A stretch of 42,325 bases of DNA from a virus, in IMG/VR virus record IMGVR_UViG_3300044811_000044, positions 1-42,325 of that record. One strand, given 5' to 3'. Both the position numbers and the translations under genes were made by a program. Below are positions 4,356-40,698 of this stretch, piece by piece; the first letter of the stretch is position 1; each line of letters starts with the position of its first letter. A model generated the notes under the pieces. The model was not told where the DNA came from, made no database searches, and was given only the letters and a program-made list of their open reading frames with translations.

Positions 4356-4564
4356 ACTTCGGGTAGCTCAGACTCGTAGTTATTATCAGAGACGGCAATG
4401 AACTTTGTGCCGGGGCGCCGCCGAGCCTGCCCGTATGTCTCGATGATCATGTTCTCGACGATCCGACAGGCGGATCCGGCCTTCGCCTGGTCGACTCGCG
4501 ACCATAGTTTCTGAGAGAACTCTCCGGCGTTGAAACTCACGAGTGCTCTGGATGCATCAGCCAT
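4352..4564 (-). CDS. Detached N-terminal segment of the tail nozzle protein
   Basis: Seventy residues containing the hallmark of podovirus nozzle N-termini: SFNAGEFSQKL, then SACRIVENMI, then RRRPGTKFIA. In related phages this stretch is the first 60-70 residues of one long gp12-like chain. Here it ends in its own stop, and the body restarts at 4164 after an intervening gene. Its ATG shares one base with the stop of the upstream paralogue (TGATG), and its stop overlaps the next start. It is 50-60% identical by eye to the N-terminus of the 4564..5694 protein, indicating duplication. Confidence 0.8.
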   Translation of the reverse strand: MADASRALVSFNAGEFSQKLWSRVDQAKAGSACRIVENMIIETYGQARRRPGTKFIAVSDNNYESELPEV

Positions 4565-9749: not shown

Positions 9750-10061
9750 TTAACGTATGACCTGTGGTGGTTTGGCGAGTTCGTCGAAGTCTTTATTCAC
9801 GAGCTCACGGATCTGAAGAAAGAAGCAGCGGTAGCCCTCGTTCACCGCAAAGGAAAGATCATCCTTTGGGCCCATTGTCGCCGGGAAGGTGCTGCGGTTT
9901 TGGAAGGAGATATCCTCAAGGTAGGTCCAGACCGCGACCTGCTGAGGTGTAAGGAGAGGGTCTCCCTTCCTTCCGAAGACTTGCCGGAATGCGTGACAGA
10001 GGCGGCGAACTTCGGCGTTGGCCTCCACCTTACTCTCACCGGCGCGTTTTATTGGGTTCAT
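9750..10061 (-). CDS. Small head-region protein, possibly Bbp19-like
   Basis: A 103-residue protein with VRRLCHAFRQVFGRKGDPLL near residue 18 and a final helical block, YRCFFLQIRELVNKDFDEL. The F-x-x-V-F-G opening followed by a short helical body resembles Bbp19-type proteins that lie after the portal gene in many podoviruses. The similarity is moderate and I cannot confirm it. The ATG overlaps the portal stop by four bases (ATGA). Confidence 0.65.
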   Translation of the reverse strand: MNPIKRAGESKVEANAEVRRLCHAFRQVFGRKGDPLLTPQQVAVWTYLEDISFQNRSTFPATMGPKDDLSFAVNEGYRCFFLQIRELVNKDFDELAKPPQVIR

Positions 10062-12054: not shown

Positions 12055-12341
12055 AGACGGGAGAATCGCTCGAAATCGTAGGTTCTGGTTGAGAAATCGC
12101 CCCGTAGCCCGCGCGTGAAAGCAATCCGCTTAAGGCCTCGAGGTGCTAATTCGCAGAACCTTTGAAGCGGTTCCTTTCCAATGGCAAGGAAGATGAAAAG
12201 CGCGGAGTCCTGCATCTCGGCAAGGATCAGGCAATCCTGATCGGCGTAGACGTAGCCGTTCGAATAATACCAATCGAAAGCCACGGCAGGGTCATAGCCA
12301 TGGCTTTGGAGCAGTGCAACCGCGCGCGAGTACGGGCTCAT
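12018..12341 (-). CDS. Small conserved protein between terminase and portal
   Basis: The 107 residues show a pattern seen in short phage proteins near the large terminase gene: a hydrophobic centre (CLILAEMQDSALFIFLAIGK), then FCELAPRGLKRIAFTRGLRGD, then an aromatic YDFERFSRL. No activity is assigned to this family. The ATG overlaps the TerL stop by four bases (ATGA), so it is likely co-translated with TerL. Confidence 0.7.
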   Translation of the reverse strand: MSPYSRAVALLQSHGYDPAVAFDWYYSNGYVYADQDCLILAEMQDSALFIFLAIGKEPLQRFCELAPRGLKRIAFTRGLRGDFSTRTYDFERFSRLCALKSPISSNG

Positions 12342-13993
12342 CGAATGCCTCGGACCACGTTGAACTTTGGTCCCTCGCGGCTACCTGATACGACGTTTGG
12401 CCGGGAAAGTCCGGTCTGGACGTGGAACTGACCGCGGCGATTCTCGCGAGCTCCAAGGCCAGCTTCGAGCATTCCGCGCGAATGCGCCTCCGCGAAGGTG
12501 CGCAGCGCGTCAGCGCCGTGCGATGACTGATCGTGTACCGGATTTTCCGTGATCTTTCCACCTACGGCTTCAACTACGGTGTGATATCCAGAGAGCGCAG
12601 AGAGTCCCGCAGGAAGGATCAGTTTTGAGGGGAGGATCACGTCCTTCGAGCAGTTGGTTGCATGGAAGAAGAAGCGCGGGAGGAGGGAGCGAAGATGCTG
12701 GATTCCGACCCAGAAGTCAGGAGTGCGGGGCACGATCGCGATGTCTTTGAGGCCGGCGGCGATCAGCATGTCACGCCACGACTTGTTGCCGGCCAGTTTG
12801 ATCACGTGGGCCGCGTCGTGGGGTAAATAGTGCTTCGTTATCTTCCGGTCGTAGTGTCGCTCCCACTCTAGCATTTTCGCTGCGTAATAGGCCGGCTTTT
12901 CGCCGTGGAAGGTGGCGTAATCGACCGCGAGGATGTCCAGCCCCACCGGCTGTAGGAGCCAAATACAGGTGTAATCCGAGACTCCGATGTCCCATGAGGT
13001 GATGAGTGCGCCGTGTCCCTCGATCACAAAATCTCGGATCCTACCCTGCTGCCGGAGCGCCAAGATCTCTTTGCCGTAGATCGCACCCGGCCGAATTGCC
13101 TGCAGTGCTTCCTCGGCCGTCCCGGGATACTGCCTAGCCATGTCGACCTCAGGGGTCGCGGCTTTCTTCACGTACCAATGCTTTTGCTCAGGCGTGAGCT
13201 TTATCCCGCATTGCTTCTCTAGCTCGGCGAAGTAATCCGCGTGCTCTTTGAGGATCTTGATCGGCCCAAAGAGCGGGAGCGTGTAGAGTGGTTCTCGCCA
13301 CCAGGCGAAGAAATGGAACTTCCAATCGAGCGCGGTCTCGGGATTTGCTCCCGAAGCCTGTGCCTGGCGGACCAGTTGATAGTTGAGCCCGTAGCGGCCG
13401 CCCTCGTGGGTTGATTCGACGATGATCACGTTGCCAGGGTGCACCGTGTTGAACGAGCCGGCGGCTATTTCAGACGCCTTTTCCGGGGTTTCCGAAGCGA
13501 TGTAACCCAGTTCCGAGACGTGGAGGAAGTTGACCGTGCCGCCGCGCAGCGACGTGCCGCACCAGATTTTCGAACCATTCGTGAACTCGAGCTCCTCGGT
13601 GTTCTCTTTCACGAGCCTCACGGCCTGCTTGATCAGAGCCCCGAGTTGCGCGGTCGCGGGGTCGTCCGGGTCGTCCAGGTGATCGTAAGCGTATTTGATC
13701 TTTGCCAGCTTCTTTTTCGCGTCGTCCTTCGTCCGATCGATGATGCCGCAGGTTTGATCCTTCGTGAAGATATCGCGATCGAGTTGAAGGAGGCCGACAA
13801 ACGTGGAGATCCCGATTTGGCGCACCTTCAGTACCATGTTAAGGTACCAAAGGCTGCGCAGTAGTTCATCCTGAGCCCAGCGGAGACGAAACTTTCGTTT
13901 CGTCCCGTTTTGGTCCTGAACCCAATATAAGTTATTGAGCCTCCAGAAGCGGCTTTTGAGCTTCTTGACCAGTGCTTGCTCTTCCGGGGTCAA
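12338..13993 (-). CDS. Terminase large subunit
   Basis: The 551-residue packaging motor has a variant Walker A motif, KVRQIGIST (residues 56-64). A Walker B-like strand ends in Glu161 (NFLHVSEL), and the coupling motif IVESTHEG is at 191-198. The RNase H-like nuclease follows, with Asp335 (SWDIGVSD), Asp393 (PHDA) and Asp495 (HGADALRTF). It cuts concatemeric DNA and drives it into the procapsid through the portal at 10058..11785. The start is a TTG at 13993 that overlaps the upstream stop (TTGA); no better ATG is available near the conserved N-terminus. TerS lies far upstream at 21789..22454. Confidence 0.9.
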   Translation of the reverse strand: MTPEEQALVKKLKSRFWRLNNLYWVQDQNGTKRKFRLRWAQDELLRSLWYLNMVLKVRQIGISTFVGLLQLDRDIFTKDQTCGIIDRTKDDAKKKLAKIKYAYDHLDDPDDPATAQLGALIKQAVRLVKENTEELEFTNGSKIWCGTSLRGGTVNFLHVSELGYIASETPEKASEIAAGSFNTVHPGNVIIVESTHEGGRYGLNYQLVRQAQASGANPETALDWKFHFFAWWREPLYTLPLFGPIKILKEHADYFAELEKQCGIKLTPEQKHWYVKKAATPEVDMARQYPGTAEEALQAIRPGAIYGKEILALRQQGRIRDFVIEGHGALITSWDIGVSDYTCIWLLQPVGLDILAVDYATFHGEKPAYYAAKMLEWERHYDRKITKHYLPHDAAHVIKLAGNKSWRDMLIAAGLKDIAIVPRTPDFWVGIQHLRSLLPRFFFHATNCSKDVILPSKLILPAGLSALSGYHTVVEAVGGKITENPVHDQSSHGADALRTFAEAHSRGMLEAGLGARENRRGQFHVQTGLSRPNVVSGSREGPKFNVVRGIR

Positions 13994-21716: not shown

Positions 21717-21792
21717 CCGCAGGGCACGAGGTTTTTGCTAGCACGTCGGCAAACTCCTTCCAAATCGCCTCTCCTATATCGCGAGCGTTCAT
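21529..21792 (-). CDS. Doubtful overlapping small ORF after TerS
   Basis: An 87-residue frame starts at an ATG overlapping the TerS stop (ATGA), the junction type used throughout this genome. Its first 32 residues (MNARDIGEAIWKEFADVLAK) look like a real helix. The rest is Arg/Ser/His-rich and lies antiphase to the better-looking 21480..21716 gene. Either this is a short gene whose tail is noise, or a frameshift joins it to the next frame near 21710. I keep it at low confidence. Confidence 0.3.
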   Translation of the reverse strand: MNARDIGEAIWKEFADVLAKTSCPADVPKQACSRLSTRSLRRDHDRTLSRLGSLGPGHRLGLFWHFLRAVRRRSRLSCRPLARHSHR

Positions 21793-22454
21793 GCTGGATA
21801 GACGCGCGTGCGGCGCTTTTGCGGGGGGTTCTCTTCCGGGACAGGGAAAGCATCGAAATCCTCCTCGAACGGGCCTGGCGTTCGTTTCTGCTCACGTGCC
21901 GAGCCTGCAGGAGTCGCGGTCTCTCCTGCAGGGACACCTTCCGCCGTTTCAGCGGAGACCGCCCTGACCTCGGCCGCCGGTGCTTCGGCTTCGGTCTTTT
22001 GCCCAGCGGGCAATTGGAAACTCTGGACGTCGATCACTTCATCTTCGGCCGGCAGGGGCGAGGAGCCATTGAGCGCGGCCATGACGGAAACGAGGGTGAT
22101 CTCTCCTTCGACGGACACGATTTGTCTATCGTCGCCGGTCATTCGATTGTCGATAACAATAGCCCGCTGACGCTCGAGGATACTCGCGCGCACGTTCTCG
22201 GCAAACTGGAGTAAGAGTTCCCGCTTTCGAGCGCGGGTCAGGAACGGGCGCTTTTCGTCGGGCTTTGCGAGTTCGCGGATGCGCGCCGCGACGGCGGGGC
22301 GTTTGGCTACCTTGTAGCCGCCTATCTTCGCATTCTTAGAGTCTGAGTTGTACGCCTCCTGGTAGGCATCTTTCTTGGAACGGCCCTGCGCAACCAGGCG
22401 CGCGAACCAGTCTTCTTTGTGCGTGAGTCTGCGGTGAGCTGTTTCGGCTACCAT
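21789..22454 (-). CDS. Terminase small subunit
   Basis: The 221-residue protein starts with a helix-turn-helix type block typical of TerS: LTHKEDWFARLVAQGRSKKD, AYQEAYNSDS, then YKVAKRPAVAARIRELAKPD. A helical oligomerisation part follows (RKRELLLQFAENVRASIL), then an acidic Ala/Glu/Pro-rich tail ending in basic residues. TerS recognises the packaging site and loads TerL, which here is encoded about 8 kb downstream beyond the fibre cluster. The ATG has a strong Shine-Dalgarno (AGGTGAGG). It is the first gene of the late minus-strand unit. Confidence 0.8.
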   Translation of the reverse strand: MVAETAHRRLTHKEDWFARLVAQGRSKKDAYQEAYNSDSKNAKIGGYKVAKRPAVAARIRELAKPDEKRPFLTRARKRELLLQFAENVRASILERQRAIVIDNRMTGDDRQIVSVEGEITLVSVMAALNGSSPLPAEDEVIDVQSFQLPAGQKTEAEAPAAEVRAVSAETAEGVPAGETATPAGSAREQKRTPGPFEEDFDAFPVPEENPPQKRRTRVYPA

Positions 22455-24394: not shown

Positions 24395-24603
24395 GTTCGT
24401 GCCGCCTCCGCGAGCAGTTCGATGAGCACGCGAGGATCGGGCCACACACACGGAGAATCACCGACAATCGGATGAATCTTAGGCGCCGGAACGTGGCCCT
24501 TGAGTGGGTCAAAGAGCGCGGCGGCGCGGACCAGGTTGCAGCATAGTAACAGGGTCGATAGAATCCCGAAGAGGAGACGTTTTTTGTTTTGATAGGCTTT
24601 CAT
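24391..24603 (-). CDS. Small exported protein
   Basis: From ATG at 24603 the protein is 70 residues, with a signal-peptide-like start: basic MKAYQNKKR, hydrophobic LLFGILSTLLLCCNLV, then a small-residue RAAA that could be the cleavage site. The mature part is short and Pro-rich (KGHVPAPKIHPIVGDSPCVW). A TTG at 24618 could extend it by five residues. It may reach the periplasm or inner membrane, and its role is unknown. Confidence 0.55.
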   Translation of the reverse strand: MKAYQNKKRLLFGILSTLLLCCNLVRAAALFDPLKGHVPAPKIHPIVGDSPCVWPDPRVLIELLAEAART

Positions 24604-24642
24604 GATAGCTTTAGGCAAGCTGAGTACCGTTTTTCTCGGGTT

Positions 24643-25077
24643 TTACCCGCCGTTCTGGACTTCGTCTGATAGTTTTGGGCTACCTATGGCCTTTTCGTCA
24701 AGACCGTGAGCCTCTTCCCATGATAACTTCTCCATGGATGAGGAGTAAAGCCAGCCCCTTAGGTGGCGGACGAGTTCTAAGACCTGTCTACGGGTCAATA
24801 CCGCCCTGGTATCGAATGTAACCTCGTCGGGGAAAGGAAAAGCAACAAACCCCGTCTTTTGTACGGTTTTGATGCCTAGAGCCTTTGCATCTCTGGCCTG
24901 CAGCTTCGGCTTTGCCTTTTCGGCCCCGATCGCAATCCCCATACCATTTTCGGAATAAGCCAGTGTTACGGACTGGACGACGCATGGCACGCCGAGGGCG
25001 TCTTTGAATCTTACGAGCTCAAGTCCCCGGGAGGACTTCGCGACTTTACCTAGACCGTTGGTCGGTGGAGTTATCAT
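24643..25077 (-). CDS. Conserved small phage protein with F-K-D-x-x-G-x-x-C opening
   Basis: I take the ATG at 25077, which has AGGG nine bases upstream and lies in the repeated motif CCGATGATAACT. The 144 residues contain RFKDALGVPCVVQSVTLAYS and a later LTRRQVLELVRHLRGWL helix. This matches a common small phage family in which an F-x-D-x-x-G-x-x-C strand precedes an enzyme-like or ligand-binding fold and a final helix. No function is known. It is the first gene of the leftward unit, so the promoter should lie in the 25078..26131 region. Confidence 0.6.
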   Translation of the reverse strand: MITPPTNGLGKVAKSSRGLELVRFKDALGVPCVVQSVTLAYSENGMGIAIGAEKAKPKLQARDAKALGIKTVQKTGFVAFPFPDEVTFDTRAVLTRRQVLELVRHLRGWLYSSSMEKLSWEEAHGLDEKAIGSPKLSDEVQNGG

Positions 25078-25141
25078 CGGCATCATCCCTGACGGGATAC
25101 GCGCTCTCGCGCAAGTCTGAAGAGAGCTGAGGATCACGGTT

Positions 25142-25465
25142 CGTGGACACCTGCGGGCGCACCTCACCCATTGCTGGGTAAGGGCGAGAGAAGCGCAAGG
25201 CTCCCGGACTGTGGTCTCGCGTATGCCCCGTAGCTAGTGACCCCCACGGCGTGTCCACGTTTCAAGGGTGAAAAAGGAACACACGGAAAGCTCCGGGGCG
25301 CTCTGCCTCCTCGAAGGGGCGTCTCTGCGTTTCCCTCCGTGTGCTCTTGTTTCGTTGCTACGGTCCTCACGGCCTTTCGGCCAGACAGATTTCAGCCCGC
25401 TTGGAATTGAGAAGCACTGAGGAGAAACGGTAGCCGGCTCCGCAAACCGACCCTTGCGCACAAGG
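25142..25465 (-). ncRNA. Candidate structured RNA (hairpin cluster with GNRA/UNCG loops)
   Basis: Read on the minus strand, several stems close on favoured RNA tetraloops: ACCCA-GCAA-TGGGT (25166-25179), GGCC-GAAA-GGCC (25371-25382) and CCTTG-TGCG-CAAGG (25452-25465). Other stems are CACACGGA with TCCGTGTG (25280/25336), GCCTC with GGGGC (25305/25316) and a 9-bp closing pair CGTGGACAC with GTGTCCACG (25142/25251). The loop bias is on one strand only, which suggests a minus-strand RNA. No known family was identified, and no promoter was found. Confidence 0.35.
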
Positions 25466-25632
25466 CGGAGGTTTCGGCGGTGAGCTTAATCCGGCCATGA
25501 ACTCACATCACGTCCCGTTTCTCATCAGTGCCGCCCTGCTGTTCGACAGCGCGGACACCGTACTATTCCCACCGTGCGGGCCGGAGCCTTCGGGTGCGGG
25601 GTTCTGGTTGTTATCTCGCGGTGCCAGTTCGA

Positions 25633-25740
25633 CGAAACGCTTTAGGACGTTGAGCCAGCTCTCTCACGTCGTGCCCCTGGCTGTCAAACTGAAAAACCCC
25701 CGCACCTTTCGGCGCGAGGGTCTTCAGCTAAAGCGTTTCG
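25633..25740 (-). ncRNA. Candidate three-way-junction RNA
   Basis: The ends are a perfect 13-bp inverted repeat (CGAAACGCTTTAG at 25633, CTAAAGCGTTTCG at 25728). Inside are two more stems: AGCCAG with CTGGCT (25653/25677) and the hairpin at 25696-25721 with a GAAA loop on the minus strand. Together they can fold into a three-way junction. The inner GAAA hairpin also looks like a terminator, so this could be an attenuator instead of a stable RNA. Confidence 0.35.
25692..25722 (-). terminator. Intrinsic terminator on the minus strand inside the intergenic region
   Basis: On the minus strand, ACCCTCGCGCC-GAAA-GGTGCGGGGGT (two mismatches) is followed by TTTTTCAG. It has no gene immediately upstream on that strand, so it either ends a short non-coding transcript starting between about 25750 and 26130 or acts as an attenuator for the leftward unit. 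Confidence 0.6.
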
Positions 25741-25749
25741 GAAAACTCT

Positions 25750-25782
25750 GTTCAAACGCACACCGGTGTTCAGTTGAACACA
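25750..25782. promoter_or_regulatory. Operator-like palindrome cluster
   Basis: GTGTTCA-GT-TGAACAC (25766-25781) is a perfect 7-bp inverted repeat. It overlaps the 10-bp palindrome ACACCGGTGT (25760-25769), and a further half-site, GTTCAA, sits at 25750. Such clustered dyads between divergent genes are typical repressor sites. No repressor gene was recognised. Confidence 0.4.
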
Positions 25783-25998
25783 AGCCCAAAACTGACCGCG
25801 TAGTCTTTCTCCCTAGGGCTATAGAGGGGAAATCAGGGCTTTCTTTTTTTAACTTCTCGTGTTACCGCAGGTGGTCTTCAGACGAATGAAGCACTCGATC
25901 AGCCTCCGGGGAGGCCAGGGAATGCCGCACGTTGGAGCAGACTCGCCACCCGGAGGCCCTATTTAAAAAAGTAGGCCGAGCCCGCGGTGAGACGAGCC

Positions 25999-26034
25999 CG
26001 GCTGATGATAACAGCCCGGAAGCGAGTATCGCTT
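25999..26034. repeat. Pair of short hairpins next to the rightward unit
   Basis: GGCTG-ATGATAA-CAGCC (26000-26016) presents the ATGATAAC motif in its loop. AAGCGA-GTA-TCGCTT (26020-26034) is a 6-bp perfect stem with a 3-nt loop. Both lie about 100 bases before the first gene of the rightward unit. They may be protein-binding or RNA elements. Confidence 0.4.
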
Positions 26035-26131
26035 GCGCAATTTGGCGCCTCTACGGGTTGCATGAAGGTGTAGGGTATAGCGCTCAATTGTCGAGAGCTG
26101 GAGAAAATCAAATTGCTATCCCTCCAAAAAA

Positions 26132-26425
26132 GTGACTCGCTCTCGGCCGATGATAACTACTACGGCCCCCAAGCCGGAGAACGCGGGAGCGTTCACGGAT
26201 AAACTAATCGTGGCACTCGCGGAGTGCGCTCAATACCTCAAAGAGGATCAAACGCCAAAGGCCCAGGCCTTGCGGGACAGGGCAATCGATCTGATCACCG
26301 TTTGGATGCTGTCGGTCTACCAGGAGGACAACGCCTTGAAGTCTCCTTTGCCGAAGGTTCCGACAGCAAGCGGTCCAGAAGTCAGGGAGAAGCTGATGAG
26401 CTACATTCTGGGAGGGAAATCATGA
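26132..26425 (+). CDS. Small unknown protein, first gene of the rightward unit
   Basis: The frame begins at a GTG at 26132, but the ATG at 26150 (MITTTAPKPENAGAF), which lies in the CCGATGATAACT motif, may be the real start. No Shine-Dalgarno is visible for either. The product has about 97 residues with a helical core (TDKLIVALAECAQYLKEDQT, AQALRDRAIDLITVWM). No family is recognised. The stop overlaps the next ATG (ATGA). Confidence 0.6.
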   Translation: MTRSRPMITTTAPKPENAGAFTDKLIVALAECAQYLKEDQTPKAQALRDRAIDLITVWMLSVYQEDNALKSPLPKVPTASGPEVREKLMSYILGGKS

Positions 26426-26571
26426 GCGCTTACACCGTAGTCTCAGCGTTCCTCATTCTGATGATCCTACTCGCGGTCGCGAACGAGTTCCGGCGATGGC
26501 AGCGCATCCGGGAGCGCAATAGGCGGCTCGGAGAGCGACTCGCCAAGCTGGACGGCGGCCGGCATTATTAG
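26422..26571 (+). CDS. 49-residue single-pass membrane protein
   Basis: The ATG at 26422 has GGAGGGAAATC just upstream and overlaps the previous stop (ATGA). The 49 residues are a hydrophobic N-terminal helix (YTVVSAFLILMILLAVANEF) followed by a strongly basic tail (RRWQRIRERNRRLGERLAKL). It is probably an inner-membrane peptide with the charged part in the cytoplasm. It could be a holin-type or superinfection-type peptide; neither can be proven. Confidence 0.6.
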   Translation: MSAYTVVSAFLILMILLAVANEFRRWQRIRERNRRLGERLAKLDGGRHY

Positions 26572-26574
26572 GCG

Positions 26575-27255
26575 ATGGACACCCCACAGCAAATCACCCT
26601 GGGCCAGGTGCTGGAGTTAGAGCCCGGCCAGAACGGTTCGAAGACCTACGTAAACGACGAGTTTGACGCGATCGTCGAAGTCGTGGAGGAGAAAAAGTCC
26701 AGGACGAGCGGCAAGGCCTTCTGGATCACTCAACTCGTGGATCCGCACAACTCACGGATCGCGCTCGAGTGCGCATTCTTTCGCAACCCTGGCCAGTATA
26801 ACGGCAAGGTGTGCCACTTCGCCGGCGGAGGAATGACCCGCGAGGAATACAACGGCAAACAGAAGCTTGGCCTAGGACGAGACACGAAAGTCCAAATCGT
26901 GGGTAAAGCTCCACAGTCAGCACCGGCGCAGTCGAACGGAAATGGGGCTGGGACGCACGAAAGCGGCCGACCCCAGCCTCAGATACCCCCCGCGGCTCAA
27001 AGTGCGTCATTTACGGCCCGGGCTGTCGTTGAGGCGCTATCCATTATCAAGTCTGAGGGTGTAGTCGATTATCACTCCGGGGAGTTCGCCCCGATCCTCC
27101 ACACGCTGGCCAGCGACATTCTCCGCGTTCACAATTGGCTAGAGGACGGGAAACTGGCACCCGCCACGGGATCTCCTCCTAGCCAATCGACCCCGCCTCC
27201 CGACGATAGACCCGTCGGAAACCGGCCGCCGATCGACGAGGATGTTCCATTCTAA
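26575..27255 (+). CDS. Single-stranded DNA-binding-like protein
   Basis: A 226-residue protein. Residues about 7-112 are a beta-rich segment compatible with an OB-fold (FDAIVEVVEEKKSRTSGKAF, RIALECAFFRNPGQYNGKVC). A Pro/Gln-rich linker, a small helical part and an acidic C-terminal end, IDEDVPF, follow. The last residues mimic the DDDIPF tail through which bacterial SSB recruits replication and repair partners. It probably coats single-stranded DNA near the primase-helicase. The OB assignment is by composition and tail, not by a clear match. Confidence 0.6.
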   Translation: MDTPQQITLGQVLELEPGQNGSKTYVNDEFDAIVEVVEEKKSRTSGKAFWITQLVDPHNSRIALECAFFRNPGQYNGKVCHFAGGGMTREEYNGKQKLGLGRDTKVQIVGKAPQSAPAQSNGNGAGTHESGRPQPQIPPAAQSASFTARAVVEALSIIKSEGVVDYHSGEFAPILHTLASDILRVHNWLEDGKLAPATGSPPSQSTPPPDDRPVGNRPPIDEDVPF

Positions 27256-27285: not shown

Positions 27286-27576
27286 ATGAAAGATGTCATA
27301 ATCCGAACTCGTTCGGCCGGCGTATTCGCTGGCCAATTAGCTACGTTTGAAAATCAAACCGCCGTTCTCAAAAATGCCCGCCGGCTCTGGTATTGGTCCG
27401 GCGCTGCGTCTCTTAGCGAACTTTCGGTTCTCGGTGTTAAAAAGCCGAAAGAATGCAAGTTCCCAATCGCTGTCGAAGAGGTCATTTTGCCCGAGGTGAT
27501 CGAAATTCTTCCGCTCACTCCGAAGGCGCGCGATTCCATCGCAGCCGTGAAGGTTTGGTCAGCCAACGATGAGTAA
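27286..27576 (+). CDS. DUF6948-like protein
   Basis: The 96 residues match a common phage pattern: VIIRTRSAGVFAGQL, then NARRLWYWSGAASLSELSVL, then KECKFPIAVEEVIL and a C-terminal LTPKARDSIAAVKVW. Members are often followed by a glycine-repeat frame, as here. The fold looks like a short beta-sandwich with a Trp-rich loop. No biochemical role is known. The next gene starts eight bases before this stop. Confidence 0.7.
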   Translation: MKDVIIRTRSAGVFAGQLATFENQTAVLKNARRLWYWSGAASLSELSVLGVKKPKECKFPIAVEEVILPEVIEILPLTPKARDSIAAVKVWSANDE

Positions 27577-27805
27577 GGCTTCGAAGTCAACTGATGGCTC
27601 TGGCTATGGCTATGGCTATGGCGATGGCGATGGCTCTGGCTATGGCTCTGGCGATGGCTCTGGCTCTGGCTATGGCTATGGCTATGGCTTTGGCTATGGC
27701 TTTGGCTCTGGCTCTGGCGATGGCGATGGCTCTGGCTATGGCTATGGCTATGGCGATGGCGATGGCTCTGGCTATGGCTCTGGCGATGGCTCTGGCGATG
27801 GCTAA
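27569..27805 (+). CDS. Gly-X repeat protein (Tyr/Ser/Asp/Phe)
   Basis: After MSKASKST the protein is a run of 35 dipeptides X-G, where X is Tyr, Ser, Asp or Phe. A 24-residue block is repeated at residues 9-32 and 53-76. It probably forms a flexible or adhesive low-complexity chain. The start overlaps the DUF6948-like stop, so the two are likely coupled. The same pairing occurs in other phages, which supports expression despite the extreme composition. The other frames over this repeat are also open, by chance of the hexamer. Confidence 0.6.
   Translation: MSKASKSTDGSGYGYGYGDGDGSGYGSGDGSGSGYGYGYGFGYGFGSGSGDGDGSGYGYGYGDGDGSGYGSGDGSGDG
27593..27803. repeat. Hexanucleotide tandem repeat with an internal 72-bp duplication
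   Basis: About 35 units of GGC followed by TCT, TAT, GAT or TTT, equivalent to a degenerate 6-bp unit. A 72-bp block is repeated at 27593-27664 and 27725-27796. All length changes in 6-bp steps keep the frame of the Gly-X gene, so the array can shrink or grow without breaking it. Confidence 0.85.
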
Positions 27806-27811
27806 AAATTT

Positions 27812-27847
27812 CAAGAAGGTCATCCGCCCCGGATGACCTTCTTTTTT
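27812..27847 (+). terminator. Intrinsic terminator after the Gly-X repeat gene
   Basis: A 13-bp perfect stem (AAGAAGGTCATCC at 27813-27825, GGATGACCTTCTT at 27831-27843) has a GCCCC loop and then a T-run on the plus strand. It lies inside the rightward unit, so downstream replication genes need another promoter or read-through. Confidence 0.9.
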
Positions 27848-29144: not shown

Positions 29145-29459
29145 ATGGATGATGATAACCAGTTGGTGCCGGTGGACCCATTCCACGGGTATTTGGACGA
29201 CATGTCCGCCGTAGCTATCCGGAATCTCCCGGACTATTTCGAGTTTGAGGTGCTTGAGCGCTGGTTTAGCGACCAGACCCAACTCTCATTTCGACAGTCC
29301 GCCGAAGATCTCATGGAGTTTTGTGATATTGCGCGGCATGAAGGCTACGATGTCCACGTCTGGGCTTCTCAGGGAGAACTCCAGCGCACGTTTCGCTTCA
29401 AGCGGCGCCCAAAGGCTCAAAAAGAGGGTCGCATCGACGAGGGCGCTATCGACATATGA
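29145..29459 (+). CDS. Small acidic protein before the primase-helicase
   Basis: A 104-residue protein starting MDDDNQLVPVDPFHGYLDDM, with a helical centre (EVLERWFSDQTQLSFRQSAE) and a basic tail (RFKRRPKAQKEGRIDEGA). No family is recognised. Its stop overlaps the primase-helicase ATG by four bases (ATGA), suggesting an accessory replication role. Confidence 0.55.
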   Translation: MDDDNQLVPVDPFHGYLDDMSAVAIRNLPDYFEFEVLERWFSDQTQLSFRQSAEDLMEFCDIARHEGYDVHVWASQGELQRTFRFKRRPKAQKEGRIDEGAIDI

Positions 29460-31291
29460 TCACGGCCGCGGACGCAAAGAATCGTTTGTTGGGTCAATTG
29501 GAAGCGTTCCTCGCGTTCCTCCTTCCGGCGGGCAAGGTCGAAGGCCACGAGTACCGCGTAGGCGACGTCAAGGGAACGCCTGGCAAATCGCTCGCGGTTC
29601 AGCTTCGTGGCGATGCGCGCGGGGTGTTTCAGGACTTCGCTACGGGAGAAAAAGGAGACATCTTCGACCTTTACTGCGCGAACAAGGAAGTCGGCTTTAA
29701 GGAGGCCTTCCCGGAGATTTGCCGCTACCTTGGCCTCGTGGAAGTCGGTCGACCCGTGCCGAAGCCAAAGCCTCCGAAGCCGCCCATTTTCGATGTAACG
29801 GGTATGACGGGAAGTAAGGTCCTAGAGTACCTAAACAAGACCCGCGGACTGACCCCGGAGACGCTCAAGACCTATGGCGTGCGTACCCATCGGCGCAACA
29901 GCCCCCACAACGTGGACTTCATCTGTTTCCAGTTTTCGGATTCTGAGGGCGTTCCAGTGATGCTCAAGTCCACCGGGATCAAAAAGAGGGCCGACGGCGG
30001 CAAGGACATCTGGACCACAGAACCTTATTACACCCTTTGGGGATGGTGGCTGGTCAAGCCAGAGGCCAGGGAGATCATGATAAGTGAAGGCGAAATAGAT
30101 GCGTGTTCTTTACATCAAATGGGCGCGCCGATGCCGGTCCTTTCTCTTCCTAGCGGAGCGCAAAACCTGACCTGGATCGAGAACGACTGGACCGCGCTTC
30201 AACGTTTCGAGAAGATTTATCTCTGTTTCGATAACGATGAGGCCGGAGAGAAAGCGGCGGTCGACACGGCCAAACGTCTTGGCCTCACTCGCTGCTACCG
30301 GATCAAACCGCCGGGCACGTACAAGGACGCGAATGAGTGCCTTGTGAAGGGCGAGCCCGAAGAGCTCGAGGTCTCTGGCTGGATCGCCGCGGCCAAGACC
30401 TACGACCCGCCGACGATCCGGTCTGCGCGCGAACTTCGCGATGAGACTAGGCGCCTCATGTTCCTCCAGGCTGAGGAAGCTAAACGATCAACCTTCGTCT
30501 TCCCGGCGGTCAAATTCTCGATCCGGGACGGGGAAACCAGCCTCGTGACTGGCCGGACGAGCCACGGAAAGAGCGAATTTTGCTACCAAACGCTCGTTCA
30601 CGAGATGAGGGCGGGCAACCGGGTCTGCATCCTTTCGTGCGAGATTCCACCGGCCGCGATGCTGCGCAATATCGCCACCCAACTTTGCGAGCGGTACCCG
30701 TCGGATGAGGACCTCGACAAAGCCCTGACGTTTCTGGACGGCAAACTCTGGTTCTTCATCCGGCCGCCAGACGCGAAGCGCGAGGACTGGGGGCCGATGT
30801 TCGCTGACTTCGCCTACTGCGTACAACGTTTTGGCTGCAAGCGCTTCCTCGTCGATTCGCTCATCTTCCTCACTGGCAAAGAGGACTACGACGCTCAGGA
30901 CCGCTTAGCTACGTCACTCCATAATTTCGACCTTCAGCACAACACACACTCGTTTCTGATCGCGCACGCTTCGGAGAAAAAGGCCGGCTACTCAATCCCC
31001 GGACAGGAGGAGATTTCCGGTTCTGGCGGACTTCTCGCTCCTTTCGACAATATCCTGATCGTTTACCGGTATATCGAAAAAGAGGACCGGCTTGAGAAAG
31101 CGAAGCAGGACGGAAACCAACACGAGATGGAGCAGATTGAGGCTCAGCCCGACGGGCTCTTGATCGTCGCGAAGCAACGGCTCACCGGCGAACGGAGCAA
31201 GACTAAGCTCTGGTTTAATCGTAGTTCCCGCACCTACCGCACGGCGCCCGATATCCCACCAGTCCTGAAAGCTGAGGAGCTACCCTTTTGA
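29456..31291 (+). CDS. Bifunctional DNA primase-helicase, gp4-like
   Basis: The 611 residues have an N-terminal part without the usual zinc cysteines (KVEGHEYRVGDVKGTPGKSL, GVFQDFATGEKGDIFDLYC). A TOPRIM primase core follows (MISEGEIDACSL at 208-219, CFDNDEAG at 257-264, KDANE at 290-294). The DnaB-type helicase has Walker A GRTSHGKS (366-373) and an acidic Walker B strand RFLVDSL (463-469, Asp467). It should unwind the fork and lay primers, with a host polymerase extending them because no phage polymerase was found. The missing zinc module is notable and may alter template recognition. The start overlaps the previous stop. Confidence 0.88.
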   Translation: MITAADAKNRLLGQLEAFLAFLLPAGKVEGHEYRVGDVKGTPGKSLAVQLRGDARGVFQDFATGEKGDIFDLYCANKEVGFKEAFPEICRYLGLVEVGRPVPKPKPPKPPIFDVTGMTGSKVLEYLNKTRGLTPETLKTYGVRTHRRNSPHNVDFICFQFSDSEGVPVMLKSTGIKKRADGGKDIWTTEPYYTLWGWWLVKPEAREIMISEGEIDACSLHQMGAPMPVLSLPSGAQNLTWIENDWTALQRFEKIYLCFDNDEAGEKAAVDTAKRLGLTRCYRIKPPGTYKDANECLVKGEPEELEVSGWIAAAKTYDPPTIRSARELRDETRRLMFLQAEEAKRSTFVFPAVKFSIRDGETSLVTGRTSHGKSEFCYQTLVHEMRAGNRVCILSCEIPPAAMLRNIATQLCERYPSDEDLDKALTFLDGKLWFFIRPPDAKREDWGPMFADFAYCVQRFGCKRFLVDSLIFLTGKEDYDAQDRLATSLHNFDLQHNTHSFLIAHASEKKAGYSIPGQEEISGSGGLLAPFDNILIVYRYIEKEDRLEKAKQDGNQHEMEQIEAQPDGLLIVAKQRLTGERSKTKLWFNRSSRTYRTAPDIPPVLKAEELPF

Positions 31292-34099: not shown

Positions 34100-34332
34100 G
34101 AGACGAACGCCAGCTAGAGAAAGAAAAATCGACTGAAGCTGAGCTACAACTAATTGCGAGAGCACTTGGCGAAGAGCTCTCAGCGAGAGGAATACCCTTC
34201 ATTTGTCTGATCGGTTCGCCGGTTGGCAACGTTATCCGTTGCTCGCACGGGATGTGGGAAGAGGTAAATCGAGCATCCATGATCGAGGAAGCGGTCGAAT
34301 ACATTAACTTTCTCGGGGAGAAATACCAATGA
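34096..34332 (+). CDS. Small unknown protein
   Basis: A 78-residue protein with a helical start (LEKEKSTEAELQLIARALGE), a strand-turn centre (GIPFICLIGSPVGNVIRCSH) and a helical end. No family is recognised. It overlaps both neighbours by four bases (ATGA), placing it in the same transcript as the RusA-like gene. Confidence 0.55.
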   Translation: MRDERQLEKEKSTEAELQLIARALGEELSARGIPFICLIGSPVGNVIRCSHGMWEEVNRASMIEEAVEYINFLGEKYQ

Positions 34333-35003
34333 GTGCTCCAAGTGAGGAAGAGCTCCGTAAGATGTTTCCGAACGCTGCGGAGTCGTTCATCAGGAAGAAT
34401 GCCGGCGTCACTGCCTCGCATTCCGCGATCGGAGCAACTGGCTTCGTCCCTGGACGCAACGGGCTCGGAGCTCTGGGTCAACTCGTGGACCGAATCGATG
34501 AGGTGGTCACCGTTCCAGCTTCGCAGCCAGCGCGGCAGCTTCGAACGGTAAAGGAAGAAAATGCGTCAGGGGCTACTTCCGTACCCCAAAAGCGGGAAAT
34601 GCCGTCAAATGCGCCTATTTCGCTTCTTCTGCCCTATCCACCGACCGCAAATAAATACTGGCGGTCGATCATCTCAAAGGGCCGCGTCATGGTCCTCGTG
34701 TCCAGCAAGGCGAAGCATTACAAGCGGGCGATTGCGATCATCGCTAAAGCCAGGGTCAAAACTCCGCTCGTTGGATCTCTGGTCATCACGCTAAAACTCT
34801 ACCGGCCGCGAAAGATCGGCGACCTCTCCAACCTGATAAAGGTCCTCGAGGATGCTTTGCAGGGCGTCTGCTACGAGGACGATAACCAAATCGTGGAAAT
34901 CCACGCCTACCGGCACGACGACAAGTCGCACCCGAGGGTCGAACTCACTATCGCTTTGGCTGAGGTGGCCGATAGCCAACCGCTCTTAGCGCTCGAGCCG
35001 TAG
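34329..35003 (+). CDS. RusA-like Holliday-junction resolvase with N-terminal extension
   Basis: Residues about 100-215 of 224 match RusA: LPYPPTANKYWRS, VSSKAKHYKRA, then GDLSNLIKVLEDALQGV and EDDNQI. RusA cuts four-way junctions and needs Asp residues; the usual DLDN is DLSN here, so the second catalytic Asp is Ser167. Asp165, Lys171, Asp175 and Asp184/185 remain. The first 95 residues, beginning MSAPSEEELRKMFPNAAESF, form an extra Pro/Ala-rich part. Activity may be altered. The 3' end overlaps the converging 1916-residue gene by 56 bases. Confidence 0.75.
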   Translation: MSAPSEEELRKMFPNAAESFIRKNAGVTASHSAIGATGFVPGRNGLGALGQLVDRIDEVVTVPASQPARQLRTVKEENASGATSVPQKREMPSNAPISLLLPYPPTANKYWRSIISKGRVMVLVSSKAKHYKRAIAIIAKARVKTPLVGSLVITLKLYRPRKIGDLSNLIKVLEDALQGVCYEDDNQIVEIHAYRHDDKSHPRVELTIALAEVADSQPLLALEP

Positions 35004-38000
35004 CGCCCTCGTCGATCCCCGCGAGGAGAAGTTTCGCGCGTTCCTCGGTCTGACTTCCCAGTCGATCGAGGAATACGCCGTTATCCTGGAGGAGTTTTTC
35101 TTTGATGTAGCTCTGCCGGACTTTGAAGAAGTCGTAGAACTTATCCCCGAGGCGTTGCTTGTAGGCGCTGCCATCTCCGGGATCCAAGTTAAGTCTAGCA
35201 AAGGTAGCATAAATACGCGCTTCCGGAGTGTTCCGGCTGGCCTCCGTGTAAAACCAGCCTCCCGGGCGGTTCGTCATCTCATCGCCAAGGATGTCGAGAG
35301 CCGGTCTGTTCAGGTGCCGGAGGCCGATTACCTGAGACATGAGGGCGGCCTTCACCGTAGAGATGTCCCTTTGCTTCGGATCGAAGTCGCGGTCGATCGA
35401 GGCCCAGAAGTTCGCGAGCGGCACGGCCACCGAGGTTGCGGTCCCAACGGTGAAGCGGGCGATTGCCTTGCGCGTACTGTCCTCAGACTGCCGACTGGTT
35501 CCCATGAGGGCATCGAGGCTGTCACTTAATTGGACCATGAACGTTTGGCTCAGCATCGCCTGGGGAATCGCTTTCATAGCCGATGCCAGGCGGAAGGTGC
35601 CGTCCTTCGCGTCGAACTGCTTGTACCGGGCTCCGTCGTGCATCGCTCCCACCATCGCAAGCGCTGGACCTATCGGGAGGAACTTGTACGGCAGAAAGAT
35701 CGATTTACCGCCCACGTTGAACTGAATCGAGTACGGCCGATACTCTGGCCCCCAGAAGGCGCGGTTCTTATCCGGGTCTCCAGTGCCTCGGCCGTGGATC
35801 CGCCAAATGCGGTCTTCTTCATCTTTGCCGGTCGTTGGGTAGCCAGCTACGGCGAGAGTCGCGAGGGAAGCGAGCCCGACGATCCCACGCTTGAGCATCA
35901 TCGAGCGTTGATCCTCACTCATCGCTTCGAAGTGCGCAGCTCCGGGCCCATCGTAAATGAGCTCTTGTCCGTAGAGCGCTTTCACAATCGAGACCCCGGA
36001 ACCAAACTCCCAGGCGCGAGCAAATAGGTTTGCCGGGATCTGGATGAACGGGATCTCGACTCGCGGCGCGAGCGTCAGGAAGCGAAGGAACGGGCTTTGC
36101 GAGGCTTCGCCCGCTTTGCGCAGCGATGTGAAGCCGGAAATCAGGCTGTTCGCGAAAAACCCCACCATGCCTTCCGATTTGTAGTTGAAGGTGAGGCGCG
36201 CGGCCAGGTCGCTTGCCCGGTCGACGAGCTTCTGATCGCGACTGAGCAGCCGGAGTTCACGGGTTCTCGAGTCAACCCATTGAGCTTCGGTCTGCCCCTG
36301 GCGCAAGTCCGGGTGAAGCATCTGGAATTCCTCGCGGGCCTGCGCCTCGTGATCGGCTACCTGCTGTGGCGACTCATTGAGGAGGGAATCGACACGCTCT
36401 GCAACACCGGCGAGGTCCTTGCCTCCCGCTTTCTGCGCCATTTCCCAGGCGACTTGCCGGGCTTTGATCTCGTAGGCAGTAGCGGCGAAGAAGACGTCAG
36501 AGGCTCGGAGCAAGCGCCCCACGTATTTGGAAAGATTGTAGGGGCGAGCGAGGCCGGTGAACTTCGTTTGCTCCAGTATGGATGTCTGACCGAACTTCGG
36601 AGCGCTCTCACGCAAGGGCGAGTTCCGGCCTGTCTTCATGAGCTGCCGGGCTTCGGCGATGCCGGCGGCGGCTCCGGACTGTGCCCCATTGATTATCCCA
36701 TCCCATTTCGCGGCCCAGGAACTCGGTTTCGAGAAGAGGGCGTCCATTCCGAACTCAGCTAAGCTCGTGAGGTTGGAGAGCGTGTTTCTAATGTGGGTCG
36801 GGTAGCCGGCCAGGATGTGAGCGTAAAAGAGGGCGAAGCCGACATCGATCCGTGAGGCCGGTGCGAGCAAGTTGTGAACGTAGTCGAAAAGATCGATTGT
36901 CGCGTCTCTGCGCGCGGCGGAGTCCGCCGGGGTCGAAGCGATCCGCTCGGCGAAGAGGGAAAGAGCTTTAGCGTGCTCGCCGCCAATGTCAGGAAGCGCG
37001 TGCTTTTGCATCAGGACTTCCTCGAGGCCTTTCTCCGTGAGCTTCCCTTCGTTGAATAGCTCCAGGCCTTTCTCGTAAAGTTTCTGGATGTCCTTTGGCG
37101 TTTGGACGTTCATTTCCTTGAGGCGCGCCTTCACGCGCCCCTCGAAGTCAGTCGGCTCCTTCACGGCCGCGTCGAGCGCCTTACGGCTATCGGCCAGGAT
37201 GGCCCGAAGATCTTTGATGTCGGCTGGGACGAGCGGAGAATTCGTTTCCCCAAGGTGCGCTTTGATTTCCTCCTGCGTTCCCTCGTTTAAGAGCCGAGTG
37301 TTTTCCTCGATGCGTGCGCGCAGGTCGCGCAACTTCACTTCGTGCTGATCTAGACGATTCTGAAGATCTTCCCGAAGTCCCTTTCGAGCACTCGCGATCA
37401 TCTTTTGCAGGTTCGCGATCTCCTCCGATACCTTTTCGCCGGCCTTTGGCCCCACTTCGTTCGCGATCTGAGCGATCGTGCCGCGATTCGTGAGCTCCGT
37501 GAGCCGCTCCATCGTCGCTTTGAGTTTCGCGATTCTGGCTTTCTCCTCGGCGTCGACCCCGATCTCTTCCTTCAGAACCTTCGCTACCTCTCCGGTCTTC
37601 TCGGTTTTGCGGATCTTGGTCTTCTTCTTTTGAACCTCCTGGAAGAGCAGTTGCTCAGCCTGTTCCGGCTTCGTGAACTGATCCCCGTAGATCTTGAACA
37701 TATTGACGCCCTGTCCTAGGGAGGTTCCGATCTCGGCCGCGTGCATCAGCGTATCGTGCCAGGCTGGCCAATTGCCGGCGGCGGCGAACTTCTCGGCTAG
37801 CTGTTTACCGATCGCGACCCGTGTGTCCGGATTGAGGTCGTTGTTTAGATCGATGAAGCGGTTGTAGGCGGCGGCTTCGCCGGCTATCGAGATTTCCCGA
37901 GCCGCGGCCTCTTGCACGTCATTCATATGCCGCACCGGGTACTGGATATTGTCCAGGGCCGCGCGAATCTCCGGAGCGACGCCTTTAGCGATTCCCTGCC

Positions 38001-40698
38001 CTTCCGACATGCGTTGCGTGACTGTCCGCTCCTTCGTTTCAGCGTTCGGATCAGCAGGGCCGGAAATCGAGGCCTCTGAATTTGCGCGAGCAAGCTCCAG
38101 GTGCTTTTGAAGCTCGTCCTGAGATTGGGTAAAAAGTTGCTCCAGGTGAGGACGGATCTTTTCTCCTAGCTCCCGAATCATTTGGGCCGAGAATTCGGCA
38201 AAGTCCCTCGCGCCGCGGGCGATCACAAGCGAACCTTTGACCGTCAGAAGGTAGTTCATCTCTGGATCCAGGCCGGAGAAGAGTTTTCCACCGTAGCCAA
38301 GCTCCTTCAGGCGAGCGTCGGTGCGCGCTTCGAGGTCGAGGAGTGCTTTCGGAAGCTCCGGAATGATCGGTGCACGTTCAGCCTGGTTCGTAGGACTACG
38401 TACGGCGTTCTCATTTGCTTGCGTAGTACGGTCAACCAGTACACCGGCGGCGCCTTCCGGCGTAGCGGCTTGTCCGGCTACACCGGCCGAGTCGCTCACG
38501 GTGAGTTTTCCTTCAGCATCGCGGGCGATCTGGGCTTTCCACTGCTTCATCATCTCCGCTTCCGTAGAGGTCTCCTTCCCGAGCCCGCTGGAGGTGTCGG
38601 CACTTCTCGCACCGATATTGACGAAATCCGGATCACGCACCCCGGCCGCCCATTGTTCGGGAGACGGGACAGGCGTTAACAGCACGTCACCCTTGGATGG
38701 GTGCCCGTGGCTCCATCCGCGGTCTGTTTTAAAGGCCACTCCCTCGATCGGGTATGTGACCATCTGGCCAGCAGCTTTCGAAGCCGCAACGTCGATGCCC
38801 TCTCCCCAGCCGGCAAATGCGACCGGGACGATCGTGCCGTCCTTGCGCTGGAGTTCCGCTGGAAGGTGGCCGGCGGGCAGAGAGTGGAAATCCTCTGGAT
38901 ATTTCGCCATTATGTCCCGGTAGCGCTGGCTGTAGACCTGGCCCATGTCCTCGCGCTGCTGGATCGAATCCAGGTTCATCGAGACTAGGGCCTCCTTCTT
39001 CGTCTCCGTCGGCTCCTTTACTCGGTCAGCGTACCCCTTCCTGAGAATGGCTCCAGCCTCCTCCGGGGTCGCTGAGTCGGCGACCTGCTCGATATATTTG
39101 TCCTTGATCCCGAGCGCCTCCATCGCCCGGCGATTCTTCAAATACTCCTGGCCGTAGGCGCGGTCCCGGAAGGAGGCGGAGCCGGTGCCGATCAAGATAA
39201 ACGGCAGCATCGACCCAAGGGTCTCCGGTGTCGCGTGGACGACGTCGGAGAGCTCTTTGCCGAAATCCACTCCCGGAATCGTGGAATCGAGTTGGCTCGC
39301 GATCGATTGCACCGCCGATGGCAATAGCTGTTGAATCTCCGCGATTGCGGTAAGACCTACAGCTTCGCCGGTGGCCAGCGTTGCAATACGAGTTGCCAGC
39401 GATCCACGGAGAAGCTGCCTCGCCCCTGGGAGTTTGCCGATGATCATCTTCGAGGAAACGAAGTTGAGTGCCGTTTCCGGCACGGCCGCCACGAGGGAAA
39501 GAAGATCCGCCTGGTTTGGGTTCATCCCCTGGTCTTCGTAATGCCCGCGTAGTTCCTCCTTTGTTGCTAGGGCCGCGGCGAAGATGCCAGGGCCAGACAT
39601 GAAGGCTAATAACTTTGGAGCACTCTCGGCCGTACCGAGGACGGAGTTCGCGATCCAGCCGCCTCCCTTGAGTGGATCTACTTCGCCAGTGATGCGTTGG
39701 TTAAGTTTCCTTTCGATCTGGGTATCTCTCCGGTCGATTGTAGCCGCCTCCTCACCGCGATCCAGTCCCAGTGCAACGCCACGGCGGGCTAACTCTCGCA
39801 CAGCCCCGATCGTATTAGCCGCAAAATCACCAACCCCACGCTCGAGTCGAAACATCGCTTTCTCGGCAAACCCATCCTCGCCCCTGGCCTTCGGTTTAAT
39901 GCCGACCTGGCCGGCGGCGAAGTCCATCACCATTTCCGCTTGGTCCGGAGTGAGGGTACCTAATTGCTTCAAGACTTTTTCGCGTTGAGCGACTGCGGCG
40001 GCCTCTTCCGAAGGGGCAACGCCGTTGCGTGCGAAGCTTAGATATTTGGCCGTTTCCGCTATCGGCTCGGCGAGGAGCGTGTGCTGGGTCTGAAACTCGT
40101 CCCAGTTCTGGCGCATCTGCTGCCGGTAGACGTCTAGCTGAGTCGGATCCCAGCCGGGGCTGTTCTTCGCCTGGTTCGCGAGGGAATCGAACGCTTGTGA
40201 GAAATTCTGGCTTAAGGCCGGTATCGTCCCGGAGTTGGGTTGAGTTCGAAGATGCTGGAAAAGCCCCTGCGACATCTGGAAGAGCATCCCCGCTTCGGCC
40301 TTCTTCTGTGCGATGTGCTGGCCTACCCGGTCGTAAAAGGCGTTGTCATCGAGCGGAGCGTCCTCGTGGAAGACGGTCTTCGCGTAGGCGGCCCGGTATT
40401 GGTCCGCGGTCGTAGCTAGCCGCTCGGGATCCACTCCGAAATTGTGCGACAGAAACGCGATATTCGCGGCGCGCTTCGTGGCGGTCTTCTTATCCTCTAC
40501 GCCGGCGAGCGCTGAGTTGAGCTGCGTGATCGCCTCCGGTGAGAGCACTTTTGGCAGATTGTCCACCCCACCAAAGAGTTTCTCCGGATCAAGCGGCGGG
40601 GCGGACGGGGCCTGGGTCGTCGGACTCTCGGGTGCGTCGCCAAACTCGTTTGCCGGCGCGGGGACTGTGGCTAACTCATCTCCAAAGGCATTACTCAT
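34948..40698 (-). CDS. Giant internal virion protein, probable ejection protein (gp16-like role)
   Basis: A 1916-residue protein with an acidic Pro-rich start (EFGDAPESPTTQAPSAPPLD), many helical and coiled-coil parts (KGLREDLQNRLDQHEVKLRD), and a C-terminal part with hydrophobic helices (RGIVGLASLATLAVAGYPTT) resembling podovirus giant virion proteins. No transglycosylase motif was seen. By position after the gp15-like gene it should enter the cell with the DNA and help build the conduit. It ends in an antisense overlap with the RusA-like gene. Confidence 0.75.
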   Translation of the reverse strand: MSNAFGDELATVPAPANEFGDAPESPTTQAPSAPPLDPEKLFGGVDNLPKVLSPEAITQLNSALAGVEDKKTATKRAANIAFLSHNFGVDPERLATTADQYRAAYAKTVFHEDAPLDDNAFYDRVGQHIAQKKAEAGMLFQMSQGLFQHLRTQPNSGTIPALSQNFSQAFDSLANQAKNSPGWDPTQLDVYRQQMRQNWDEFQTQHTLLAEPIAETAKYLSFARNGVAPSEEAAAVAQREKVLKQLGTLTPDQAEMVMDFAAGQVGIKPKARGEDGFAEKAMFRLERGVGDFAANTIGAVRELARRGVALGLDRGEEAATIDRRDTQIERKLNQRITGEVDPLKGGGWIANSVLGTAESAPKLLAFMSGPGIFAAALATKEELRGHYEDQGMNPNQADLLSLVAAVPETALNFVSSKMIIGKLPGARQLLRGSLATRIATLATGEAVGLTAIAEIQQLLPSAVQSIASQLDSTIPGVDFGKELSDVVHATPETLGSMLPFILIGTGSASFRDRAYGQEYLKNRRAMEALGIKDKYIEQVADSATPEEAGAILRKGYADRVKEPTETKKEALVSMNLDSIQQREDMGQVYSQRYRDIMAKYPEDFHSLPAGHLPAELQRKDGTIVPVAFAGWGEGIDVAASKAAGQMVTYPIEGVAFKTDRGWSHGHPSKGDVLLTPVPSPEQWAAGVRDPDFVNIGARSADTSSGLGKETSTEAEMMKQWKAQIARDAEGKLTVSDSAGVAGQAATPEGAAGVLVDRTTQANENAVRSPTNQAERAPIIPELPKALLDLEARTDARLKELGYGGKLFSGLDPEMNYLLTVKGSLVIARGARDFAEFSAQMIRELGEKIRPHLEQLFTQSQDELQKHLELARANSEASISGPADPNAETKERTVTQRMSEGQGIAKGVAPEIRAALDNIQYPVRHMNDVQEAAAREISIAGEAAAYNRFIDLNNDLNPDTRVAIGKQLAEKFAAAGNWPAWHDTLMHAAEIGTSLGQGVNMFKIYGDQFTKPEQAEQLLFQEVQKKKTKIRKTEKTGEVAKVLKEEIGVDAEEKARIAKLKATMERLTELTNRGTIAQIANEVGPKAGEKVSEEIANLQKMIASARKGLREDLQNRLDQHEVKLRDLRARIEENTRLLNEGTQEEIKAHLGETNSPLVPADIKDLRAILADSRKALDAAVKEPTDFEGRVKARLKEMNVQTPKDIQKLYEKGLELFNEGKLTEKGLEEVLMQKHALPDIGGEHAKALSLFAERIASTPADSAARRDATIDLFDYVHNLLAPASRIDVGFALFYAHILAGYPTHIRNTLSNLTSLAEFGMDALFSKPSSWAAKWDGIINGAQSGAAAGIAEARQLMKTGRNSPLRESAPKFGQTSILEQTKFTGLARPYNLSKYVGRLLRASDVFFAATAYEIKARQVAWEMAQKAGGKDLAGVAERVDSLLNESPQQVADHEAQAREEFQMLHPDLRQGQTEAQWVDSRTRELRLLSRDQKLVDRASDLAARLTFNYKSEGMVGFFANSLISGFTSLRKAGEASQSPFLRFLTLAPRVEIPFIQIPANLFARAWEFGSGVSIVKALYGQELIYDGPGAAHFEAMSEDQRSMMLKRGIVGLASLATLAVAGYPTTGKDEEDRIWRIHGRGTGDPDKNRAFWGPEYRPYSIQFNVGGKSIFLPYKFLPIGPALAMVGAMHDGARYKQFDAKDGTFRLASAMKAIPQAMLSQTFMVQLSDSLDALMGTSRQSEDSTRKAIARFTVGTATSVAVPLANFWASIDRDFDPKQRDISTVKAALMSQVIGLRHLNRPALDILGDEMTNRPGGWFYTEASRNTPEARIYATFARLNLDPGDGSAYKQRLGDKFYDFFKVRQSYIKEKLLQDNGVFLDRLGSQTEERAKLLLAGIDEGATARALRAVGYRPPQPKR

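Follow-up and report, generated by a model that had tools for sequence, protein, structure and literature searches.

Very large structured RNAs of bacteria and phages are few, and most of them are of unknown function. Among those of phages, GOLLD and ROOL are often found near tRNA islands, and many members of GOLLD, which is phage-encoded, exceed 800 nt and adopt a complex fold (PMC12286853). The put RNA of HK022, of about 70 nt, is made of two stem-loops and lies beside early promoters (PMC9378689). Together with the late-leader control of lambda (Q, tR'), it illustrates how a phage RNA or site that heads an operon can govern termination.

The locus described here lies in a window that is a whole IMG/VR virus record of 42,325 bp, from an uncultured, podovirus-like phage, and consists of a long non-coding stretch with a strand-specific, complex RNA-like fold, features expected of large ornate phage RNAs. 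As GOLLD, the candidate RNA is large, phage-encoded and complex in its predicted fold; unlike GOLLD, it matches no Rfam family, has no tRNA in the window and adjoins the first start codon of the late operon. ROOL is likewise a large multi-stem RNA of phages and prophages, whereas our candidate, of about 1.09 kb, has neither an Rfam match nor any homologue that we could find. In this regard, an Rfam covariance search at the gathering threshold returned no family for the gap, GOLLD and ROOL included, and a relaxed search (E up to 5 over 24400-26700) matched neither of the two, in agreement with the original prediction, which recognised the region as neither. Sub-threshold hits to Xoo5, Rev39 and Leu_leader were dismissed as chance matches. 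With respect to HK022 put and the lambda Q-tR' system, the candidate differs in its length of about 1.1 kb, in its location before the late operon and in that no Q-like gene was recognised. The gap RNA would work in a setting like that of phage antitermination leaders such as HK022 put, a likeness of setting and not of sequence or structural membership.

The gap sits exactly between two divergent operons, which we term late and early from their gene content. The late operon, on the minus strand, comprises the head, packaging and tail genes, including those for the major capsid protein (6882-7793, PF19821), the head-tail connector (10058-11785, PF12236), the large (12338-13993) and small (21789-22454) terminase subunits and tail proteins. 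Plus-strand genes begin at 26,150 and include those for an SSB-like protein (26575-27255; the label is our own, as no family was matched), a Toprim primase/helicase (29456-31291) and RusA (34329-35003). Both genes that flank the gap are of unassigned family and have positive codon scores: the first late gene (24643-25077, minus strand) gives only a weak match to a PHROG of unknown function, and the first early gene (26150-26425, plus strand) has no relative. ARAGORN found no tRNA or tmRNA in the window.

Other features of the window deserve mention in their own right. At 27569-27842, a small open reading frame of (YG)(DG)(SG) dipeptide repeats has a strong, perfectly paired terminator hairpin after it (27814-27842), and the plus strand there folds at z -8 because of the repeat. 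A tail protein of family phrog_376 appears to be split over 2074-5694: a 70-aa frame (4352-4564) resembles the start of a 376-aa frame (4564-5694; SFN-GE...RRPGTK), which is followed by a 696-aa body (2074-4164). For a late protein of 1,916 aa (34948-40698), Pfam gave no match and PHROG only a weak hit, of DarB-like type.

When scored against the phage's own codon usage, all reading frames across about 25,100-25,930 are negative, and the flanking genes are positive. Neither Pfam nor PHROG gave a match for the open reading frames at 25497-25889 and 25932-26135. A protein-coding reading of the gap was rejected on both counts, and the initial view that it holds no convincing gene is therefore sustained. 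The stretch had first been bounded at 25078-26131; the stretch itself is real, and its ends are better placed at 25,067-26,160, where a 13-bp terminal inverted repeat delimits a candidate minus-strand RNA of about 1.09 kb.

Our results clearly show that the gap is unusually rich in perfect stems. Counting Watson-Crick stems closed within 130 nt, we found 18 of at least 7 bp (shuffle mean 6.7), 8 of at least 8 bp (mean 1.8) and 5 of at least 9 bp (mean 0.41), and none of 150 shuffles reached the observed number in any class. From the density in the rest of the window, only 0.49 stems of at least 9 bp would be expected in the gap. In addition, the minus strand has nine hairpins of at least 4 bp capped by GNRA or UNCG loops and the plus strand has none, compared with a shuffle mean of 0.84 (0 of 500 shuffles reach nine). 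Eight of the minus-strand gap hairpins have at least 5 bp, versus 0.22 per kb elsewhere on the same strand, and the best 1.1-kb stretch away from the gap contains three, making the gap unique in the window. The original prediction had noted dense perfect stems together with minus-strand-only GCAA (25171), GAAA (25375), TGCG (25457) and GAAA (25707) loops; all four were recovered, and the hairpin-dense, gene-free character of the region proves stronger than first reported.

These strand-specific tetraloops are the strongest evidence for RNA-type structure in the gap, and they bear directly on the idea of a control site acting as DNA, be it a replication origin, a packaging site, an operator cluster or, possibly, an invertible segment with the 13-bp repeat at its ends. 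Duplex DNA sites have no reason to pick RNA tetraloops on one strand. The position between divergent operons, the terminal inverted repeat, a palindrome at 25,766-25,781 (GTGTTCAACTGAACAC, which could form a hairpin or serve as an operator) and the enrichment of GATGATAAC in the genome are all features that such a site could have. It is nevertheless quite improbable in view of nine tetraloops that all belong to the same strand, of the better folding of the minus strand, in M4 especially, by 9 kcal/mol, and of the lack of any recognised recombinase or initiator among the proteins searched.

Fold energies point in the same direction. For the 1,063 nt of the minus strand, the fold energy is -443 kcal/mol (z = -4.9 against dinucleotide shuffles), whereas the plus strand of the gap gives z = -2.65 and five coding control stretches, taken on both strands, range from z -2.8 to +0.6. 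The excess is uneven, being concentrated mainly in 25,400-26,149 (minus-strand z -3.5 for 25,400-25,760 and -2.4 for 25,745-26,149), and the leftmost third (25,087-25,450) remains close to shuffled sequence (z -0.9). This weakest third, together with the lack of homologues, is what a chance arrangement or a decaying gene remnant would share with the gap, an explanation that we regard as very improbable indeed, given that the observed values were not reached in any of 500 shuffles for the tetraloops, of 150 for the stems or of 2000 for the end closure.

The predicted fold of the minus strand is closed by a helix between its ends, P1, whose 5' strand (GTAGTTATCATCGGC, 26146-26160) contains the start codon of the first plus-strand gene and whose 3' strand (GCCGATGATAACTCC, 25067-25081) contains that of the first late gene (25077). 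Inside it, a second closing helix, P2, is predicted between 26132-26144 (GAGAGCGAG-TCAC) and 25122-25137, with a mean pair probability of about 0.7. Proceeding in the 5' to 3' direction, there follow a hairpin with an internal loop and a GCAA tetraloop (26011-26061), an 11-bp hairpin (26,002-25,975) that is succeeded by CTAC and T6 (feature 25966-26002), a weak terminator candidate with its U-run 4 nt away, and domain M5 (25864-25988), with a 10-bp stem of GGCCTCCGGG and CCCGGAGGCT. Domain M4 (25625-25745) comprises a perfect 13-bp helix of its own around a 17-bp GAAA-capped hairpin and two smaller hairpins. It encloses an intrinsic-terminator-like sequence, which reads CCCTCGCGCC GAAA GGTGCGGGGG TTTTT on the minus strand from 25,727 to 25,689. 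No other part of the gap gave repeated matches to bacterial and phage DNA; those of this hairpin are weak (blastn E about 0.02-4) and fall in unannotated stretches of enterobacterial and other phage and plasmid records.

Further along, domain M3 (25409-25536) is closed by a 20-bp helix (pair probability 0.94) and contains a UGCG-capped hairpin, and a GAAA-capped hairpin (TGGCC GAAA GGCCG) lies at 25357-25396. Domain M2 (25270-25353) has a 14-bp stem of GAGCACACGGAGGG and CTTTCCGTGTGTTC with three G-U pairs, domain M1 (25128-25262) combines a 9-bp stem with a 12-bp GCAA-capped hairpin, and a GAGA-capped hairpin (GCGC GAGA GCGC) occupies 25101-25112. The domains were picked after inspection of the fold and therefore have optimistic z-scores, namely -6.2 on the minus versus -4.5 on the plus strand for M4 (200 shuffles), the best-folding domain and 9 kcal/mol better than its complement, -3.5 for M3, -2.6 on the minus and -4.0 on the plus strand for M2, and -2.5 and -0.5, respectively, for M1.

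This modular layout could also be read as several separate short minus-strand RNAs, or tandem attenuator hairpins, with each domain independent of the rest. Local domains that measure about 80-130 nt and have their own closing stems, and terminator-like hairpins near 25,966 and 25,690 are consistent with such an arrangement. We consider it unlikely, however, as the domains bear no sequence relation to each other (a reading of them as repeats of one another was rejected), the U-run of the first terminator is displaced by 4 nt and the 13-bp end-to-end helix spans the whole stretch.

That helix derives from a 13-bp perfect inverted repeat, GCCGATGATAACT, which bounds the stretch at 25,067-25,081 (minus) and 26,146-26,160 (plus); none of 2000 shuffles gave an end-closing run above 11 bp. 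Each arm takes in a likely start codon, at 25,077 for the first gene of the late operon and at 26,150 for that of the early operon. The 9-mer GATGATAAC occurs six times in the genome, compared with 0.1 expected (23568, 25070 on the minus strand, 26004, 26149, 29151 and 33808), and the 12-mer CCGATGATAACT has three copies, all at likely gene starts, the third being at 33,806. The motif is a possible operator or translation-start motif, and since it is enriched genome-wide and recurs at a third gene start, the closing repeat may reflect a gene-start motif instead of, or besides, an RNA helix.

Taken together, the results show that the late operon is headed by about 1.09 kb of non-coding sequence whose RNA-like fold is strand-specific and statistically exceptional. 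We put the probability of a structured minus-strand RNA of about 1.1 kb at roughly 80%. The original prediction is supported in part: the tetraloops, the stem excess, the end closure and the fold energy all favour the large RNA that it placed on this strand. The main weakness of this case is that no homologue was found in which covariation might be seen. Searches with the large terminase subunit, portal and primase retrieved many relatives, of which the best full-length ones are about 50-56% identical in these proteins; a closer one (70%) is a 12-kb fragment ending short of the gap. DNA similarity to the gap was absent from 43 related virus records, and phage and plasmid records gave only a weak match of the terminator-like hairpin. 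A covariance model of M4 (R1), run over 923 kb of related loci, found only itself, and a pattern scan of IMG/VR for the M4 helix gave 14 unrelated hits, discarded because their intervening sequence is unlike M4. Searches with the flanking proteins and with the SSB-like gene found no relatives, and a profile search of genome contigs with primase and portal alignments yielded no confirmed relative. In all, no homologue of the gap RNA was found in the IMG/VR, phage or plasmid records searched.

Related phages do, however, carry an RNA at the corresponding place. Their late-operon leader contains a conserved 95-nt RNA, ATCCGAGCGGGTGNNACTGCAAGGARACTTGCA..RCCCGCTC, followed by a terminator, which precedes the terminase/portal operon where this could be checked. 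The leader is readable in L006 (3723-3817, minus) and L101 (4831-4937, minus) and, by scanning, in L215 (3993-4085, plus) and L217 (10362-10453, minus); L211 (3689-3784, minus), L214 (2190-2285, minus), L216 (11642-11737, minus) and L218 (1545-1636, minus) carry the element too, with no relative of the window's proteins detected near it. Eight loci are counted, L212 and L213 being the same records as L101 and L006. Across the eight sequences, 99.5% of cells in the terminator and hairpin are paired, with three doubly changed pairs. An antiterminator, formed by CCGAGCGGGUGNN with the loop and 3' strand of the terminator and mutually exclusive with it, keeps 12-13 of 13 pairs in each sequence, and its two variable positions change in step (AC/GU, CC/GG, GA/UC, AG/CU). 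In six of the eight, TTGA lies 34-35 nt upstream of ATCCGAG. Rfam holds no family for this RNA, whose features suggest a riboswitch-like element or an attenuator. Since a conserved RNA with a covarying terminator and an alternative antiterminator fronts the terminase/portal operon, this phage group appears to attenuate its late operon through a leader RNA.

Two further observations were made in these records. L006 encodes an 83-nt tRNA-Thr (GGT) at 3858-3940 (minus), in its early/late gap just upstream of the attenuator RNA. A G+C hairpin, seen by eye, precedes the SSB-like gene in L003 (1507-1600), L005 (1890-1990), L006 (7160-7250) and L002 (1010-1110), with a comparable one before another early gene in L096 (5960-6060); these hairpins, often accompanied by a CACGAT-GG box and a second hairpin, may represent a further leader RNA.

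In the window, a different and larger RNA appears to take the place of the attenuator at the late-operon head. Both share their genomic position, where both operons are visible, their strand relative to the late genes and a GNRA hairpin followed by a terminator. The attenuator, unlike the gap RNA, measures 95 nt, is strongly conserved in sequence and has a covarying terminator and antiterminator. A model built from the eight aligned loci (R3) did not find it in the window, the best score in the gap being 8.0 bits, on a terminator, compared with 78-111 bits for true members. On the operon strand, the gap has G+C-rich hairpins with a U-run after them (25727-25689 with T5; 26002-25975 with a displaced T6), and inspection by eye gave no convincing candidate for a mutually exclusive antiterminator upstream.

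A cis-acting leader mechanism for the gap RNA falls slightly short of an even chance in our judgement. The non-coding status, one-strand tetraloops, stem excess, fold energy, end closure and position between the operons are all in its favour, and the covarying attenuator that relatives carry at the same position suggests the same. Against it, this attenuator was not found in the gap, so that the functional analogy is positional only, the leftmost third folds near average, the closing-repeat motif recurs at 33,806, the start of a third gene, and no clear promoter was found in the gap, where a position-weight matrix derived from the promoter region of the relatives gave no convincing site. In addition, a leader of 1 kb would be unusually long.

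The main rival is a large ornate RNA that acts in trans as a free molecule, of the same kind as GOLLD, ROOL and OLE but a new family, with its own promoter and beside the late operon only by chance. The candidate is large, complex and phage-borne, with GNRA/UNCG hairpins and a long-range closing helix, all of which would fit. The association of GOLLD and ROOL with tRNA islands (PMC12286853) gives some weight to the tRNA that a related phage has in this gap; with regard to the early remark on tRNA-type positions, the window itself has no tRNA. This explanation is possible but doubtful, as the candidate matches no ornate family and has no tRNA in the window, its 3' end runs into a start codon, and no homologues were found, whereas GOLLD and ROOL are widespread. 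Given its place in the control region between the divergent early and late operons, a cis leader is no less likely than a free RNA, and the two are compatible if the leader is processed.

We propose, tentatively and well below even odds, that a new ornate RNA family of about 1.1 kb governs the early-to-late switch from the late leader through an end-closing helix over the first start codon and an internal terminator. In the cis-leader reading, the one that we favour, a single large minus-strand RNA would be transcribed as the leader of the late operon, with transcription entering near 26,100-26,160. The folded leader would repress late expression by termination at the hairpin near 25,690, and the burial of the first late start codon in P1 would add to the repression. 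Refolding, brought about by a factor or by the progress of infection, would then relieve it. It is also possible that the leader is processed, or functions, as a free RNA.

The position of the candidate ties it to late gene control and would give a large RNA a testable function. In line with this notion, the covarying attenuator of the relatives, absent from Rfam, independently suggests that late genes are controlled through leader RNAs in this phage group.
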